From the IMG/VR virus record IMGVR_UViG_3300049856_000152, positions 1 through 27,852 of that record: a stretch of DNA of 27,852 nt. One strand, 5' to 3'. Below the pieces are notes generated by a model, which was not told where the DNA came from, searched no databases, and saw only the letters and a list, made by a program, of their open reading frames with translations. Shown in pieces: positions 7,451-25,307 of the stretch. The stretch is from a virus. The number at the start of each line of letters is the position of its first letter. Within the stretch, counting starts at the first letter, position 1. The position numbers were made by a program, and so were the translations under genes.

Positions 7451-8925
7451 GCATTACCTACCTTAACACGGAAAGAAAAGCTGTCCATTTGCCAAGCTCC
7501 GGTTCCCGTCATCTTGGGACTTATGGCATCGGATACAATACGAATCGGAATATGGTTAATACCGATGGTGCTGCCAGCGACAGTTGGCCCTTTGTGCGTT
7601 ACGGTCTCGTCGCGTACTTTAGGATACAGCGTCAAGGCATGTGTGCCGGATTGTGCAACCTCGTAAGAGATCCACTGCTTTTTATTTCCCGTAGCCCCCG
7701 CATACAAATATGGGAAACGTGCCGTCCAGGAATATCCGATTTCGCCCGTGTAGGTATCGTCGAAGACATAAACCGAAGTACCGCTACGCACGTACACCTT
7801 GGCGTTTAGTTCGACCATATCGGTGACGTTGAAACCCGTCGGCAGAATGTACTTAGTCCACCCCTGCAAAGGCTGACCGTCCGGTCCCTGGCGGCTGCTT
7901 GTAAAAACGTACATCAAGTTGCCGATTGCGCACAAATACTGCGAACGTGACGGCGACCAGAGCGATACCAACCGTTTACCAGTAAGGACAAGCTGCTTAG
8001 TTTCTGCTTGTATTGCCGCCCCGATGTCGCCGTCTTGTGACTGCCCGGACGCTACGACAATGGACAGGCTACGAAATCCTCCCGAAGCAAAGTAGATCGA
8101 GTCCCCCATGATGTTGGCAATCGAGCCCGATTGTTCAGTTCCTGCGCCACCGACGATATCTGACAATTCGTTGTCCGCAGGGTCCGGGAAAAACGACCAA
8201 AGCTGTGTGGTATCAAAGAAAAATACCGCAAGCTTGTTGCCGAAATAAGAAAACCCACGTACCTCGGGATCCCCGTTGACGTGCTGTGTCACCGGCAAAA
8301 ACCCGGCGTCGCCTGAGTTTGTCCAGTCAGTTGGGCCGTTGATCGTTGACGAAAACCACACGTTTGAGGTCGTAATATCGTTTGCGATAATCTTACGCGA
8401 CATCGCAAACAAGTGCGGACCAGGAGTAAAAGGAAGCGTTACCTGGGTTTTACCGATAGCGGCGATAGTGAACACGTCCGCTTCTGGGACATAGTGGTGC
8501 TCGTATTGCGTACCTAACGCGGTGTTTGACGGGTCAAGATATTTTTCAATACAGATATACGGCGTGCGGTTCCATACTTGCGCGCCGGTAAGTCGCAACA
8601 GCGTGCCGGTATTTCCGCCTGTAACGTTGTTGCTAAAGAAGTCGTATCGGAAACCGGGTGGGCTATCTGGAAACACCCCGCTCGCTGGTACAGGTACTGC
8701 ACAACGCAAGAACCCGTTACACTTGTAAAGCCCCAATGACGTAGAATCGACAGTCGCTACGAGACGTAACTGGGCGCGTGATTTAACACCGCCGCCAATG
8801 GTGAAATCGAGGTTATCCGCTTGCCGTAATGTGTTAGGAGCGCTGGCGTCCACACCACGACGTAAGTCAAGGCCGAGAAAACCCGACACTTCAAGAAGCG
8901 GCGGTTCCTTTACCACGGGGACCAA
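7447..8925 (-). CDS. Large beta-rich tail protein, candidate tail nozzle (gp10/tubular-B-like)
   Basis: About 492 residues, rich in beta-structure and aromatic residues, with propeller-like phrases such as TTQLWSFFPDPADNE, SIYFASGGFRSLSIV and SRSQYLCAIGNLMYVFTS. It directly follows the gp4/gp11-like adaptor, the position of P22 gp10 or T7 gp12, which build the tail nozzle. That role is inferred from order, size and fold character. The start is uncertain: the frame opens with TTG at 8925, overlapping the adaptor gene by 16 bases, and GTG codons occur at 8916 and further in. The segment starting FLGLDLRRGVDASAPNTLRQ is the first that looks conserved. The stop overlaps the next ATG (ATGA). Confidence 0.65.
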   Translation of the reverse strand: MVPVVKEPPLLEVSGFLGLDLRRGVDASAPNTLRQADNLDFTIGGGVKSRAQLRLVATVDSTSLGLYKCNGFLRCAVPVPASGVFPDSPPGFRYDFFSNNVTGGNTGTLLRLTGAQVWNRTPYICIEKYLDPSNTALGTQYEHHYVPEADVFTIAAIGKTQVTLPFTPGPHLFAMSRKIIANDITTSNVWFSSTINGPTDWTNSGDAGFLPVTQHVNGDPEVRGFSYFGNKLAVFFFDTTQLWSFFPDPADNELSDIVGGAGTEQSGSIANIMGDSIYFASGGFRSLSIVVASGQSQDGDIGAAIQAETKQLVLTGKRLVSLWSPSRSQYLCAIGNLMYVFTSSRQGPDGQPLQGWTKYILPTGFNVTDMVELNAKVYVRSGTSVYVFDDTYTGEIGYSWTARFPYLYAGATGNKKQWISYEVAQSGTHALTLYPKVRDETVTHKGPTVAGSTIGINHIPIRIVSDAISPKMTGTGAWQMDSFSFRVKVGNA

Positions 8926-14661: not shown

Positions 14662-14894
14662 GCTGGAGTCCAGTCGCTTGGCAAAGCATCAATCACCAAC
14701 AATTGCTGGTCCGGGGTAAGCGCAACACCGCCATCGTGTACAACAACGGCCCATTGCGCAGTCGTCGGGTGCGGCTGAATTGCATACCAATACTTGGTCG
14801 TATCAATAGGCTCACCCGTACCTTTTCGTAGCGCAGAATGCGCGCTAATAGCTTCTGCTTCGTTTTGTGATCCACAAATGAGGTATTGCATCAT
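14658..14894 (-). CDS. Small hypothetical protein upstream of portal (78 aa)
   Basis: A 78-residue protein (MMQYLICGSQNEAEAISAHS at its start) with the phrases TTKYWYAIQPHPTTAQWAVV and ALTPDQQLLVIDALPSDW. It looks like a compact alpha/beta domain. There is no membrane segment. It overlaps both neighbours by ATGA, so it is coupled to the LamG-like protein upstream and the portal downstream. Small ORFs of this kind often follow tail-spike genes in phages. I do not recognise its function. Confidence 0.6.
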   Translation of the reverse strand: MMQYLICGSQNEAEAISAHSALRKGTGEPIDTTKYWYAIQPHPTTAQWAVVVHDGGVALTPDQQLLVIDALPSDWTPA

Positions 14895-16582
14895 GCCACC
14901 GTTATCCCGTAGAAGGGGCCTTGGCTGCGTTCAAGGGCTTGACGATCCGCAGTTGATAGCGCCGAGGTGAAGACCGTTACTCCAGACAGTGTTCCATTTA
15001 GCGCAAGTAGCCCGTTCCTATTTCCGATGTTACACGCTACATCGTTGATTGGTAAAACGCTTGCGTTTACGTTTGACAAAACGTTTGTACCATTCCGCCA
15101 AGCGTTTGCCGATGCGCCAGACACGCGGACAACCGTCGTTATTTGATTAGTCGAGTTTACTGAACCCGTGAGAGAAAGTGCTCCGCCGCCGTAGAGCACC
15201 TGCATATTGTCTGCCACGCCTTGCCGACGAAGTTCTAGTACTCCGGTTGTTCCGACTGCGTCGCTCTGCGTAAATACCATTTCATTACTGTCTGCCGTTT
15301 CAATATTAAAAATAGCGTTTACCGAAAGATCAAGTGCGCCTGTAAGTGGTCGATTAGCAACCAGCAATCCTTGTCCGCTCCCGCCAAGAAAGCGTACGGT
15401 TGGTTTACCACCAAGTGTTTCAATAGCGCCGACATTGACTATACGGGGTTGGTTTGCTGTGGTGGCTTGCGCACCGTCTCGCGTATTTCCGCTCTGGTCA
15501 TACCACGTAGTAACAAAAGCGCTTGGCTGCGATGTCGCTGCAACTGTTATGCCATAATAGATGCTTTGGCTCGCTTCAATACTTTGCTGATTCGTAGTCG
15601 ATAGTGCTGCTGGGTAAAACAACATTTCATGGACATAGCCATCCCATCCGCGTGTACTTAAAATAGTGTCATACAATAAAACCAATCCATCAGCAACCGG
15701 CGTAGACCTAGTAACAGATAGAATATGTGGATTTGTATCGATTGCGACACCGATGGTAAAATCGTTAAAATTTACAAGACTGGGTACGGTTGCGCCATCA
15801 ACAAAACCGCCAAGTGTGGCTACGCCATTACCACCAATAGTTCCAACGGGTTGCGCTTGCCCAAGTAAGTGGTTAGCTCTTGTTGTACTGCCACATGATA
15901 AAGCCCGAAAGGTGCTAGGACCGCTTGGCACGGGGTCACTAAAAACGTAGTGGTAAGATCCTACCGTGATAGATGCTGTGCTAAGGCGAGTCTGTGAAGC
16001 ATTAAGACCGCGAATCGCTGGTTTACCGTTTTGCGTTTCTACAACACCGGCATTTACGATACGCGGTTGATTCGCTGCCGTCGCTTGCGTTGCGTTGACA
16101 CTTCCAGCTTGGTCGTACCACGTCGTCACAAAGCCGCTTCCGCTTCCCACAAACGTTAAAAGCGTCGAGGTATCTAAACCCCCTGTATTGGTAAAACCAA
16201 TGTCCTGTTCCGCATTGTCCGAACTACGCCGAACGCGAATAGCCGCACCTGCGTAAGCCGCTCGCAGTTTTCGTAATGCGTACGCAGCGGAGGCTCCAGT
16301 TACTACATCAAGCGGGCTAGTTACGTTTGTAAAATTTAATAGCGCAGCGCTATCGAGGTTTCCTGAAGCGGTAAAACCAATATCTTGTTCCACATTGTCG
16401 GAACTGCGACGTACACGGATCGCCGAACCGACATACGCCGTACGAAGTTTTCGTAAAGAATATGCTGCAACAGCGGATACACTAAGCGTATCTAATACTG
16501 GGCTTTCTACGCCACCGCCCATTACGTGCAAAAGGGTAGAAACTATGGGTCGAATTGCTGGCGCAAAGAACCGTCGGATCAC
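14891..16582 (-). CDS. LamG/arabinofuranosidase-B-like virion protein with internal duplications
   Basis: A 563-residue protein starting at a GTG that overlaps the upstream stop (GTGA). Segments such as YSLRKLRTAYVGSAIRVRRS and FVTTWYDQ(A/S)G...NQPRIVN resemble the phage proteins usually annotated as alpha-L-arabinofuranosidase B catalytic-like, which have a concanavalin/LamG fold. The module 39-84 is repeated at 99-144 (RKLR-x-AY-x-G-x-AIRVRRSSDN-x-EQDIGF in both). A larger unit, 150-348, is repeated at 355-563, and both copies end in (Y/F)YGITVA. It probably binds or degrades surface glycans as part of the tail or particle surface. Catalysis is unproven, since no active-site residues can be assigned by eye. 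Confidence 0.7.
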   Translation of the reverse strand: MIRRFFAPAIRPIVSTLLHVMGGGVESPVLDTLSVSAVAAYSLRKLRTAYVGSAIRVRRSSDNVEQDIGFTASGNLDSAALLNFTNVTSPLDVVTGASAAYALRKLRAAYAGAAIRVRRSSDNAEQDIGFTNTGGLDTSTLLTFVGSGSGFVTTWYDQAGSVNATQATAANQPRIVNAGVVETQNGKPAIRGLNASQTRLSTASITVGSYHYVFSDPVPSGPSTFRALSCGSTTRANHLLGQAQPVGTIGGNGVATLGGFVDGATVPSLVNFNDFTIGVAIDTNPHILSVTRSTPVADGLVLLYDTILSTRGWDGYVHEMLFYPAALSTTNQQSIEASQSIYYGITVAATSQPSAFVTTWYDQSGNTRDGAQATTANQPRIVNVGAIETLGGKPTVRFLGGSGQGLLVANRPLTGALDLSVNAIFNIETADSNEMVFTQSDAVGTTGVLELRRQGVADNMQVLYGGGALSLTGSVNSTNQITTVVRVSGASANAWRNGTNVLSNVNASVLPINDVACNIGNRNGLLALNGTLSGVTVFTSALSTADRQALERSQGPFYGITVA

Positions 16583-21073: not shown

Positions 21074-22609
21074 CTACCAGCTATTTGACCGCAATCCGGG
21101 TACGTTTTTGCCAGAAGAGCGGCGTGATTTGAAAACGTCGTCCATGTACACTTCGCCTTTTTTCTTCCAAGAGGGAATGACGACGGAAGGAGGAAGCGGG
21201 CGACCGATGTTTTCAATACACAACGCCCCAAGTGCAAGTGCGTCGACGGCATCGTCATCGCCGGTTGTCTCGTCGCTGAACGAAAGCATGTTCGGTATCA
21301 GCTCTTCGTGTACCGTGGGCTGGTCGGGGAAATAGAACTTACCCGCTTCCATCAAGCCGCGTAATGCATGCGCAACCACCATTTTGGAGGAGCGCCGGGC
21401 CGTACGGTCGATGGTCAAATAGAAATCTTCTTCCGCCATTTCGCGATCAAAGAGCGGATTCAGCGCACCTTGAATAGGGCCTTTCTCGGTGGCTAAGACA
21501 CGCGCATTATGCTTCTTAGCTAACGCGATGGTAAGCCGCACGATTTCTAAGGATCCCCAGCGCCCCCAGTGAAACGTATCCATGACGTAAACGCTTCCTT
21601 GGTGATCAACACCGAGGCAGAAGATCGCTGTCTTATCGCCACGATTTGATTCCGTTACCGCATAGTCAGCGCAGATGAGGTAGGTCAAATCTTCGGGAAA
21701 TTCTTTCCAGTATTTTAAATGGTCTTTCTTAAAGAAGGCCCCGCCCTCGACAATAGGTGTTTGCTGATACATGGCAAACCAATCGCGGCTTCTCCCATTA
21801 GATACAAGATCCGCTTTAATGCGGATCAACGATTCGCGTGGCCAACGCGATGGCACCAACGCTTCGCCTTTTTTGCGTTTAAGCGGATCAGCATCGTCCT
21901 CTTCGGCTAAGGCGGGATAAGAAAGCACCGTCCACTTAGAAGCGTTTGGATCTTTCTTTGATGCCGATATGAGCCGTGCCGCTAAATCGTCGGGGTGCCA
22001 ACGTTGGTGCATAAGCAAAATGCCTCCGCCTGGGGCTAACCGAGATTGCAGATTAGCCATGTACCAACTGAATAACGCCTCGCGCTCGACTTCCGATAAC
22101 GCTTGTTGAATCCCAGCCACTGGATCGTCAACAATCCCGATGGTACAACCTTTTCCTACGACCTGCGTGCCGACGCCGAGTGCGACATATCCGCCGTTCT
22201 TGGTCGTACGGATATTCATCGTCGAATTACGCGATGGGTCCGGTGAAAATCCTTGGAACGTATCCTGGTACATTGGTGCGTTCAGCCGATTACTGACCCA
22301 AAGACCGAAGTCCTTAGCAAGTCCGTCGGTTGCGGAAGCGGCAATGATCTCCCAATCGGGATGCTTACCAATAACGTACGTTGGAAAGTTTCGTGATACC
22401 ACCTCGGATTTGCCCGATCTCGGGGGTGCAAAGATCATCAAGCGCGGACTTTTCTTTTCTTCACACGCTTGCAAGAATGCATCTAGGTAGTCGCATAGTT
22501 GCGTTTGAAACGGGTCAAAGATAAATTGATCATCCATACGACGAATGTACCCGGCCAGTGACCGGGTAGCTAATTCACGCCGCACAAGCTCGTGCCGAAT
22601 GGCGTTCAT
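21074..22609 (-). CDS. terL: Terminase large subunit (packaging ATPase/nuclease)
   Basis: A 511-residue protein with both terminase domains. ATPase: Walker A APPRSGKS (61-68), Walker B TIGIVDDP (156-163) and coupling motif GILLMHQRWH (196-205). Nuclease (RNase H-like): first acidic residue in LICADYAVTE (D315), second in VLATEKGP (E375) and third in the GDDDAVDALALG cluster (450-461). It cuts concatemeric DNA and drives it through the portal. It overlaps the 54-residue ORF upstream by ATGA. The length is normal and all key residues are present. A putative small subunit lies three genes upstream. The portal is unusually distant, about 6.4 kb further on. Confidence 0.95.
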   Translation of the reverse strand: MNAIRHELVRRELATRSLAGYIRRMDDQFIFDPFQTQLCDYLDAFLQACEEKKSPRLMIFAPPRSGKSEVVSRNFPTYVIGKHPDWEIIAASATDGLAKDFGLWVSNRLNAPMYQDTFQGFSPDPSRNSTMNIRTTKNGGYVALGVGTQVVGKGCTIGIVDDPVAGIQQALSEVEREALFSWYMANLQSRLAPGGGILLMHQRWHPDDLAARLISASKKDPNASKWTVLSYPALAEEDDADPLKRKKGEALVPSRWPRESLIRIKADLVSNGRSRDWFAMYQQTPIVEGGAFFKKDHLKYWKEFPEDLTYLICADYAVTESNRGDKTAIFCLGVDHQGSVYVMDTFHWGRWGSLEIVRLTIALAKKHNARVLATEKGPIQGALNPLFDREMAEEDFYLTIDRTARRSSKMVVAHALRGLMEAGKFYFPDQPTVHEELIPNMLSFSDETTGDDDAVDALALGALCIENIGRPLPPSVVIPSWKKKGEVYMDDVFKSRRSSGKNVPGLRSNSW

Positions 22610-23225: not shown

Positions 23226-23810
23226 TCAAGGTTCTAAAAGGTCGAGGAGTTCGGCGTGTGTCAACTCCTTTAACTGATCGGGACCGTATTCGGAAGCCTT
23301 GCGCCGTCCGCGGTCCACACGCTGCACGACATCCTGGTAGTCCGTAGCTTTTGCATCCGGAAGCGCCTTATTGGCCAGGAATTTAATCAGATCAATCTTA
23401 TCCCGCGAGTTCAACGGAGTGCCGGTCAAATCTCCGGTCGCAATTGCCCGCGCCGCCAATGAGAACAGGGCGCGTACATCGATCGACGCCCGTGCTACCT
23501 CGGCTTGATTGGATTGTTCTGCTAAGGAGGTGAGTCTTTCGGGTGTCAGCACCAATTCCGTGGTGCCGGTGTCAAAAGGCCGATTCTGCGAAAACGCCGC
23601 AATAGCTTCCCGCGTGTGCGGATCAATGCGATCAAATAGGTCCATCTCCGTCAGCTCAACCAACGCTTGCGGTAGGCACTGCCGCAGCTTGTTGATCTCC
23701 AGCTTGGTAACGTCGACCTCCCGCCATGCGGGCCACGGCTCAATGATATTGGATTCGAGGCTGTGTGGCCACTTAGTACGGTCAGCCGGTCGGCGGATGT
23801 ACTCCTTCAT
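23226..23810 (-). CDS. Possible terminase small subunit
   Basis: A 194-residue protein. The N-terminal part (MKEYIRRPADRTKWPHSLES, then DVTKLEINKLRQCLPQALVE) and a helical C-terminal half (RALFSLAARAIATGDLTGTP, RDKIDLIKFLANKALPDAKA) are of the size expected for a small terminase. The latter phrase resembles the L-x-A-I-x-x-L-x-x-K-A-L-P pattern common near the end of such proteins. It lies in the first operon position that could hold terS. The ATG overlaps the upstream ORF's stop (ATGA) with no Shine-Dalgarno of its own. No helix-turn-helix is obvious, so the assignment is tentative. Confidence 0.4.
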   Translation of the reverse strand: MKEYIRRPADRTKWPHSLESNIIEPWPAWREVDVTKLEINKLRQCLPQALVELTEMDLFDRIDPHTREAIAAFSQNRPFDTGTTELVLTPERLTSLAEQSNQAEVARASIDVRALFSLAARAIATGDLTGTPLNSRDKIDLIKFLANKALPDAKATDYQDVVQRVDRGRRKASEYGPDQLKELTHAELLDLLEP

Positions 23811-23989
23811 CAGGGCATCAGCTCAGGAATATGAAAAGTAATATTGCTAACAGAAACGTTTCCATGCGTCCTCCCTTCAAGTTGTAGGATAAGCCGCCGT
23901 ACGTGTTCTTTGATGGTTGCCTTATGCGCTTCTGGAACCCGCATCGTGAGTACAACCAGCGTATCTTGATAATGGCGTGCTCTTCCCAT
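23810..23989 (-). CDS. First ORF of the late operon (59 aa, hypothetical)
   Basis: A 59-residue frame starting MGRARHYQDTLVVLTMRVPE and ending NITFHIPELMP, whose TGA overlaps the next ATG. No Shine-Dalgarno precedes the ATG at 23989. Promoter-like hexamers upstream would start transcription almost at that ATG, so it may be leaderless, or start at an internal ATG (23944). The central stretch TIKEHVRRLILQLEG is a plausible amphipathic helix. A second small frame with a strong ribosome-binding site lies inside it (23818-23865). The function is unknown. Confidence 0.45.
   Translation of the reverse strand: MGRARHYQDTLVVLTMRVPEAHKATIKEHVRRLILQLEGRTHGNVSVSNITFHIPELMP
23818..23865 (-). CDS. Nested 15-residue hydrophobic ORF with strong RBS
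   Basis: In a different frame from the 59-residue ORF, an ATG preceded by GGGAGG at 5-6 nt opens METFLLAILLFIFLS, then TGA. The peptide is almost entirely hydrophobic and would span a membrane. The Shine-Dalgarno is among the best in the operon, while the overlapping frame and the next gene lack one. It may be a leader or coupling peptide, a membrane micro-protein, or chance. The peptide is too short for sequence-based proof. Confidence 0.3.
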   Translation of the reverse strand: METFLLAILLFIFLS

Positions 23990-24193: not shown

Positions 24194-24294
24194 TCACACG
24201 CATATTTTGTACGCTAGTAGCATAGTTTATCCGCACATGTGTTTGTATGAACCTAATAAACCTGGTTTAAGAATCGATTTATTTGCTACTATCG

Positions 24295-24384
24295 CAACAG
24301 TTAGACTAACGGTTGAACTTTTACTATCGGTTTAAACCTCTGTGTAACAATGGTTTATAGACCGTTAGTACCGTTAACCGTTAG
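24295..24384. repeat. Left iteron block
   Basis: Copies of AAC(C/A)G(T/A)TAG: CAACAGTTAG (24295, +), CTAACGGTT (24307, -), ACTATCGGTT (24322, -), ACCGTTAGT (24361, +), a partial ACCGTTAA (24370, +) and AACCGTTAG (24376, +). The first four have the same orientation series as the mirrored right block. Confidence 0.7.
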
Positions 24385-24463
24385 ATTTTATTTATGTAGA
24401 TATCGAAACAGGGGTAAGTAGGAGGGTAAAGAAATATTGACATACCGAAAGAGAGAGGTAATT

Positions 24464-24516
24464 AGGTATTAGAATATATAGTCATTTATACCCTTATTAT
24501 TATATATCTAATACCT
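24464..24516. repeat. Long imperfect hairpin in the AT-rich core
   Basis: AGGTATTAG plus ATATATA on the left and TATATAT plus CTAATACCT on the right form 16-bp arms with one bulged A at 24473 and a 20-nt loop. Nearly all pairs are A-T, so the element could melt or extrude easily. It lies between the two iteron blocks, as an unwinding element would. Confidence 0.65.
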
Positions 24517-24524
24517 ATTTAAAT

Positions 24525-24777
24525 ACTTAGTATTCCATGACTTATAACTTGAGTGTCAACTTTTCTTGCAAGCTCAATTTCTTGCTCTATCTATGATATC
24601 GAAACTTTTTACTAACTGTTGGGCTAATAGTCGTCATAACCCTATGAGACAAATAAACTTACAACCGATAGTAACCGTTAGTAAGTTAGTCTAACTGTTG
24701 TAGTAGTTAGTAAACCGGCATAGCGTTTGTTTAAACCCGTATAAAACGCTACTTAGTATAACCAATGACTTATGACT
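24525..24777. repeat. Direct repeats flanking the right iteron block
   Basis: ACTTAGTAT...ATGACTTAT(A/G)ACT occurs at 24525-24549 and 24751-24777, differing by two extra bases in the middle of the second copy. A separate 11-bp direct repeat, GATATCGAAAC, occurs at 24399-24409 and 24595-24605, just inside the iteron blocks. Confidence 0.6.
24611..24700. repeat. Right iteron block (mirror of left block)
   Basis: ACTAACTGTT (24611, -), AACCGATAGT (24663, +), AACCGTTAGT (24673, +) and CTAACTGTTG (24691, -). Read on the minus strand this gives +, -, -, +, the same order and nearly the same sequences as the first four sites of the left block. A 16-bp segment, CAACAGTTAGACTAAC at 24295, is an exact inverse of 24685-24700. 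Confidence 0.7.
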
Positions 24778-24851: not shown

Positions 24852-25307
24852 ATGAAGAACCCCTACGCTGTAATGCTAGGCTCCATAAAAAGCCCAGCGA
24901 AAGCTGCCGCAGCACGATTAAACGGCTTGAAAGGTGGCCGACCAAACACCAGCTACAAGCCGCTGACGCCCATTCCGCCATTTCCCGAAGAGGGCTACCG
25001 CGGCCATCCGGTATGGCCCCAGATAGCGGCCAATGACCAGGGCGTGGTGATTATCTGGCAGGCGAGCGCCCGTGAGCCTTATTGGAGAGCGTGCGCGCCA
25101 TCTCGGGTGACTTCGGGCAATCGCATACATTGGACCGCCAAGGGGCCGTTACACCACCTTGTTTACGAATGCGCTCATCAGCAGACCTACAAATGGTCTA
25201 AAACCGCACCCGATGGTTTCACCCTATACCACATCAATGGCATCAAGAACGACAACCGTGTTGCAAACCTACGGCTTATCTCCACTGCCAACAACTTACC
25301 AAACTAG
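24852..25307 (+). CDS. HNH endonuclease (HNH_3-like)
   Basis: A 151-residue protein. The N-terminus has SPAKAAAARLNGLKGGRPNT, a basic segment found in many small phage and plasmid proteins. The C-terminal half carries the HNH nuclease signature: HHLVYECAH (about 101-109), then FTLYHINGIKNDNRVANLRL and a final NN (146-147), where the H-I-N-G and D-N-R motifs bind metal and DNA. Enzymes of this kind are usually homing or nicking endonucleases carried between phage genes. An AGGAG lies about 10 bases before the ATG. It is the first gene of the rightward cluster and stands alone, followed by a 400-bp non-coding stretch, which suits a mobile gene. Confidence 0.9.
   Translation: MKNPYAVMLGSIKSPAKAAAARLNGLKGGRPNTSYKPLTPIPPFPEEGYRGHPVWPQIAANDQGVVIIWQASAREPYWRACAPSRVTSGNRIHWTAKGPLHHLVYECAHQQTYKWSKTAPDGFTLYHINGIKNDNRVANLRLISTANNLPN

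Follow-up and report, generated by a model that had tools for sequence, protein, structure and literature searches.

To begin with, the stretch analysed here (the window) was the entire IMG/VR record IMGVR_UViG_3300049856_000152, which is 27,852 b long, is classed as linear and may be a fragment. Its late block (tail, capsid, portal and terminase genes) occupied the minus strand up to approximately position 23,989, and its early block was formed by small plus-strand genes starting at position 24,852. Both blocks were separated by a non-coding gap of 860 bp, in which a module of short repeats (iterons) was found. The features of this region were as follows.

21074 to 22609, minus strand: terminase large subunit (TerL) of the late module (phrog_38, 1.8e-86)
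23226 to 23810, minus strand: TerS-like ORF, named for its position upstream of terL only, with no significant family matches
24269 to 24745, no strand: whole origin-like module, its probable limits in the window taken from motifs common with relatives
24269 to 24280, plus strand: left boundary motif AAGAATCGATTT, also found at L044 5251 and, as AAGAATCGAT, in G011
24296 to 24304, plus strand: iteron AACAGTTAG, left arm, outermost
24306 to 24314, minus strand: iteron AACCGTTAG, left arm
24324 to 24332, minus strand: iteron AACCGATAG, left arm
24360 to 24368, plus strand: near-iteron GACCGTTAG, left arm, equal to the class A iteron of the relatives (see below)
24369: further near-site TACCGTTAA
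24376 to 24384, plus strand: iteron AACCGTTAG, left arm, innermost
24449 to 24456, plus strand: purine tract AAGAGAGA, 49 nt left of the axis
24463 to 24517, no strand: AT-rich core with a hairpin (axis at 24498; DNA z-score of −2.5)
24612 to 24620, minus strand: iteron AACAGTTAG, right arm, innermost
24663 to 24671, plus strand: iteron AACCGATAG, right arm
24673 to 24681, plus strand: iteron AACCGTTAG, right arm
24691 to 24699, minus strand: iteron AACAGTTAG, right arm, outermost
24852 to 25307, plus strand: HNH endonuclease, first gene of the early strand

An earlier note on this DNA had described about ten copies of the nonamer AACMGWTAG, all of them confined to this region. The clustering was confirmed, although the number of exact local copies was eight (24296–24699) and two others appeared at positions 15713 and 27288, which correspond to the chance level, since dinucleotide shuffles of the whole window gave a mean of 0.7 copies. 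The nonamer was thus not frequent in the rest of the window; frequent copies elsewhere had been set beforehand as a result that would speak against an origin. Moreover, shuffles of the local 477 nt gave an expectation of only 0.03 copies against the eight observed. A word search free of any predefined motif recovered CTAACGGTT nine times with at most one mismatch, a number reached by none of 100 shuffles (maximum of 5).

The four sites per arm proposed earlier, with mirrored order and orientation, were recovered as well, the left arm reading + − − + (24296, 24306, 24324 and 24376) and the reverse-complemented right arm also reading + − − + (24691, 24673, 24663 and 24612). Sites 1 to 3 of both arms were identical variants in identical order, while site 4 was unlike (AACCGTTAG on the left vs. 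AACAGTTAG on the right) and two spacings were swapped between the arms (10/18 vs. 18/10). The two words said to be shared between the arms, CAACAGTTAGACTAAC and ACTATCGGTT, were indeed exact in both. When one arm was aligned to the reverse complement of the other, the score of 49 was the maximum of the window, followed by a centre with a score of 25, and it was reached by none of 1,000 shuffles (maximum of 33). The symmetry axis (24498) coincided with the AT-richest point, with an AT content of 0.84 in 50 nt and the arms lying about 200 nt away. The AT-rich core with a hairpin was found where it had been described, and it is probably an unwinding element. An Rfam search gave no match.

Relatives of the window phage were found by searching with alignments of the portal, capsid, TerS-like and TerL proteins, which resulted in a group of viral contigs whose portal and capsid proteins were 67–78% identical. 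Four of them (G006, G008, G010 and G011) spanned the same divergent junction between the late and early genes, and all four presented a mirror-symmetric, AT-centred module at that junction. These modules fell into two classes. Class A (G006, G008 and G010) had the site GACCGTTAG, with the module at L044 5312–5752 and a left arm of the form GACCGTTAGCCTTTTAGCGACCGTTAG...TTGCTAAGGGTTG mirrored by the right arm, and class B (G011) had the site GTCTCATTTCA within an imperfect inverted repeat of 500 nt. In the four sequences scanned (the window, G008, G010 and G011), the top mirror centre was the module itself. Thus, the arm symmetry was present in the relatives, though its sequence was not conserved: by BLASTN, the window module matched neither class significantly, nor did the class A and class B modules match each other. 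Such preservation of the architecture despite a changed recognition word is what would be expected if selection acts on the geometry of a module to which a protein binds. The limits of the module, AAGAATCGAT on the left and a CGCTACTT(A/G)GTATA-like motif on the right, matched those of the block that was swapped between G008/G010 and G011.

Furthermore, an AT peak of 0.82–0.90 was located exactly on the axis in all three distinct modules (window, class A and class B). An on-axis motif, TTATATAT, was common to the three of them (24500–24507 in the window), and the 8-mer AAGAGAGA appeared at −63 and −59 in the other two modules, on the same strand throughout. None of 300 shuffled module triples shared any 7- or 8-mer with three or more G/C at matching positions.

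Outside this group, a DNA search of the phage collection with the window module and both modules of the relatives gave no match, genome contigs queried with the TerS-like protein and the C-terminus of Prim-Pol yielded no relatives, and no comparable AT-peaked module emerged when other Prim-Pol/DUF3987 phages, as well as distant TerL relatives, were scanned for mirror symmetry. The AT-richest candidate of that mirror scan (W04 at 8441) was rejected for being an A/T-tract match, and a nonamer scan of viral contigs produced 25 hits, nearly all of them chance pairs. Many palindromic repeats of CTAACNGTTAG were found in two unrelated contigs, L007 (39 copies in 13 kb) and L016, with an architecture unlike that of the module.

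No initiator was recognised in the window, as the earlier note had remarked, and this is explained by the contig stopping 3 kb into the early genes, so that the replication genes are missing. The window is an incomplete virus record. G008 represents a whole genome, since a 1.44-kb overlap (93% identity) between its contig ends closes it into a circle of about 46 kb. In G008 and the partial relatives the early strand ran into replication genes and converged with the late strand, from which it follows that the window lacks the replication half. The relatives encoded a Prim-Pol fused to DUF3987, PolA, an SF2 helicase, a Sak4-like protein and ssDNA-binding proteins. No early ORF of the window had a detectable counterpart in G008. 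A candidate for the initiator gene that the earlier note had suggested looking for nearby was present in G008, G010 and G011, where a Prim-Pol/DUF3987 protein is encoded some 8 kb rightward of the module.

The early region was then compared over 12 kb between the classes (G008 and G010 for class A vs. G011 for class B). Among the blocks that class A genomes had in common but that were not retained in class B, the two largest were the module (some 640 nt) and a stretch of approximately 1.27 kb for the Prim-Pol C-terminus, while the intervening 8 kb or so were mostly homologous across classes. A Cys-rich ORF of 68 aa and a membrane ORF of 84 aa were likewise specific to class A, and the segment from 5.2 to 7.0 kb, made of small repeat-rich ORFs, was variable, much of it within class A too. 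The N-terminal 285 residues or so of Prim-Pol were 96–100% identical in the five genomes compared, with a minimum of 94% in single 50-residue windows of G001. In contrast, the C-terminal 440 residues or so showed identities of 24–60% across classes vs. 88–100% within them, and the last domain was 28% identical across classes. Both C-terminal alleles matched phrog_3022 (DNA primase) to the end of the profile, as well as Pfam DUF3987. The predicted helix-helix-helix-strand-strand order hints at a winged helix at the C-terminus, for which the structural models had low confidence (pLDDT of 32 and 51) and no significant fold matches.

Three other proteins did not follow the module classes. The TerS-like protein was 92% identical between G008 and G011, across classes, and 87% within class A; the TerL types cut across the module class; and the SF2 helicase grouped G010 apart from G008. 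It should be noted that the covariation of module and Prim-Pol amounts to one bipartition, because a single class B genome has both loci on one contig and class A comprises two near lineages, G006 and G010 being nearly identical. Further class B Prim-Pol contigs were found, none of which extended to the module.

Taken together, these results make it likely that the phage starts its replication at the module (24269–24745), that this origin is recognised by the C-terminal part of a primase-helicase which the phage itself encodes, and that it operates like those of PICIs and SaPIs. The origin is favoured because the clustering and mirror symmetry of the sites far exceed those of shuffles, because the symmetry outlasts sequence change in the relatives, and because the AT peak and the positional 8-mers lie on or near the axis in all three modules. 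The Prim-Pol C-terminus is proposed as the binder because, among sizeable blocks, it alone shares its class specificity with the module, the TerS-like protein, TerL and SF2 helicase being discordant. A candidate origin whose two arms are bound by an initiator, as first suggested in the earlier note, would thus be the best reading of these sequences.

Other explanations were weighed against the same data. That the origin is bound by another, unrecognised early protein, the Prim-Pol swap being coincidental, appears unlikely: the single bipartition, the two small class-specific ORFs and several early ORFs without a family would allow it, but those two ORFs look Cys-rich and membrane-spanning, and no other coding block specific to a class is as large as the swapped part of Prim-Pol, which probably finishes with the type of domain that binds origins in SaPI/SCC/P4-type proteins. 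A regulatory region, with the nonamers as operators of a transcription factor for divergent early and late promoters, would fit the location, as the promoters of both blocks must be in this intergenic region. However, the gene-adjacent sequence just outside the module was conserved between classes and the module itself was swapped, promoters were not in excess within the module, the best covarying protein was a primase-helicase rather than a repressor, and co-operators have no need of an AT-peaked symmetric core 400–500 nt wide, all of which makes this explanation quite improbable.

Packaging sites (pac/cos) are located near terS in many phages, and here the TerS-like ORF and terL directly adjoin the module on the late strand, so that the repeats might be bound by the terminase small subunit encoded alongside. 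Nevertheless, the TerS-like protein failed to covary with the repeats, being closer between G008 and G011, despite their unrelated repeats, than within class A; the TerL type was discordant with the module class; the window, G006 and G008 contigs ran through the module and no contig ended there; and one would not expect a terminase site to have an AT-peaked core with mirror symmetry. A packaging start is accordingly given little credence. Least plausible of all, to the point of being barely credible, is a centromere-like parS site of a phage-plasmid. Short inverted-repeat arrays do occur in parS and other centromere sites, and a partition protein had been considered in the earlier note, but ParA/ParB-like, integrase and plasmid maintenance domains were absent among the ORFs scanned in the relatives, the genes present are those of a replisome, and the genome is organised like that of a virus. 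For the ParA/ParB-like domains, the scan (Pfam or PHROGs) covered 22 replication and early ORFs of the relatives, a subset of their ORFs, the window being an incomplete fragment. The GC skew of G008 showed no turn at the module, but skew is confounded by gene orientation and speaks neither for nor against an origin.

If the module is an origin read by the Prim-Pol C-terminus, the iterons would be bound by the DUF3987 helicase and the probable winged helix, and each arm would assemble its own oligomer (probably hexameric), the two having opposite polarities. Between the arms, the AT core would melt beside the fixed AAGAGAGA purine tract, and two helicases might be loaded head to head for a bidirectional start, with synthesis carried out by the phage's own primase and PolA. 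The iteron sequence and the initiator C-terminus would then behave as a single exchangeable specificity cassette. Given the near-site GACCGTTAG at 24360 and the core ACCGTTAG, which the window module has in common with class A, the initiator of the window phage is predicted to be class A-like.

Among known systems, the P4 alpha protein combines a primase, a helicase and a C-terminal winged-helix origin-binding domain and recognises iterons (ori/crr), in all of which the proposed initiator would resemble it. However, P4 is a satellite with a bacterial TOPRIM primase, and its ori and crr are two separate sites several kb apart. In lambda-type origins, the iterons bound by the O protein also adjoin an AT-rich region, but they form a single array on one side of it, inside gene O, while the module found here has two mirrored sets and is non-coding.

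PICI origins always present two iteron sets around an AT-rich region directly 3′ of rep, a plan that, according to its authors in 2018, occurs in no other known bacterial replicon (PMC6092414), and SaPI Rep and SCC Cch2 bind their own iterons by the C-terminal domain (PMC7581432). Likewise, two iteron sets flanked an AT-rich region, in PICIs the melting one, in the window, G008, G010 and G011, and PICIs and SaPIs have as initiator a helicase, in some cases joined to a primase, with C-terminal iteron recognition, to which the Prim-Pol/DUF3987 protein of the relatives would correspond (PMC6092414, PMC7581432). In contrast to PICIs, the arms are here mirror-imaged, the helicase is of DUF3987 type, the module is at a divergent junction about 8 kb upstream of the initiator gene instead of immediately 3′ of it, and it belongs to a tailed phage: capsid, portal, terminase and tail genes were present in the window, unlike in a satellite without late genes of its own. 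The module would therefore work like a PICI origin without being one. In the RepA-ori system of PLE, the ICP1 satellite, the origin and the DNA-binding part of the initiator are also swapped together, the rest being conserved (PMC8263062, PMC7145576), and swap experiments showed that only cognate pairs replicate (PMC8263062). However, its initiator is of the RepA_N type, with an N-terminal DNA-binding domain and no helicase, and it has three semi-palindromic iterons of about 30 bp. On the other hand, pRN1 ORF904 and phage BIP-1 combine a Prim-pol, a helicase and a winged helix, as the relatives' protein probably does, and have an origin structure that outlasts sequence (PMC4234260), but theirs is an iteron-free long stem-loop directly 3′ of the replication gene, while in G008 the stop of Prim-Pol lies within the following ORF and there is no 3′ gap.

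It is possible, although we lean somewhat against it, that this lineage swaps origin cassettes, the mirrored PICI-like origin and the distant half of the initiator being replaced together while position and architecture are kept and the code word is fully changed. Such an exchange, if true, would mean that a self-sufficient phage has an origin built on the PICI plan, and the driving force could be the exploitation of the origin, or attacks on it, by satellites, by co-infecting phages or by defences that target origins. Selection for a new origin identity would be suggested, of the sort documented for PLE satellites, which a phage nuclease attacks, and an origin of this kind in a capsid-making phage is relevant to the question of how satellite replicons arose. 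The two allelic cassettes would constitute a natural experiment, predicting which domain reads which iteron. DUF3987 fused to Prim-Pol has been predicted to be a helicase for mobile-element replication, the domains being described as experimentally uncharacterised (PMC5862659); the cassettes offer an origin for these primase-helicases, which was named nowhere in the literature searched.

Additional variation was observed in this group of phages. The SF2 helicase had two alleles (L044:12261–13916 and L073:8132–9787), with identities of 36–76% in the middle and a conserved C-terminal third. Two TerL types, 74% and 42% identical to that of the window, were found (L044:708–2246 vs. L048:925–2430 and L046) in contigs whose late regions were otherwise 92–98% identical in DNA, which was read as allelic replacement of the terminase. 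The TerL of G006 (L046:1920–4289, minus strand) was a 789-aa ORF with an in-frame insert after residue 444 or so, probably an intein, which matched the Intein_splicing and Hint domains below the Pfam cut-offs. Moreover, in G006 and G010 alone the TerS-like gene was separated from the module by an extra gene that matched RNA ligase (PF09414; L046:5591–6199, minus strand). Some early ORFs consisted of in-frame repeats whose copy number varied between relatives (L044:9878–10630 and L072, G011 segment 5904–6167), with pentapeptide-like ANLxGANL units in G008 and GDGNGxG units in G011. Finally, the virion structural protein phrog_10356 of the window (14891–16582, minus strand) contained a stretch matching the alpha-L-arabinofuranosidase B catalytic family (PF09206, 7e-12).
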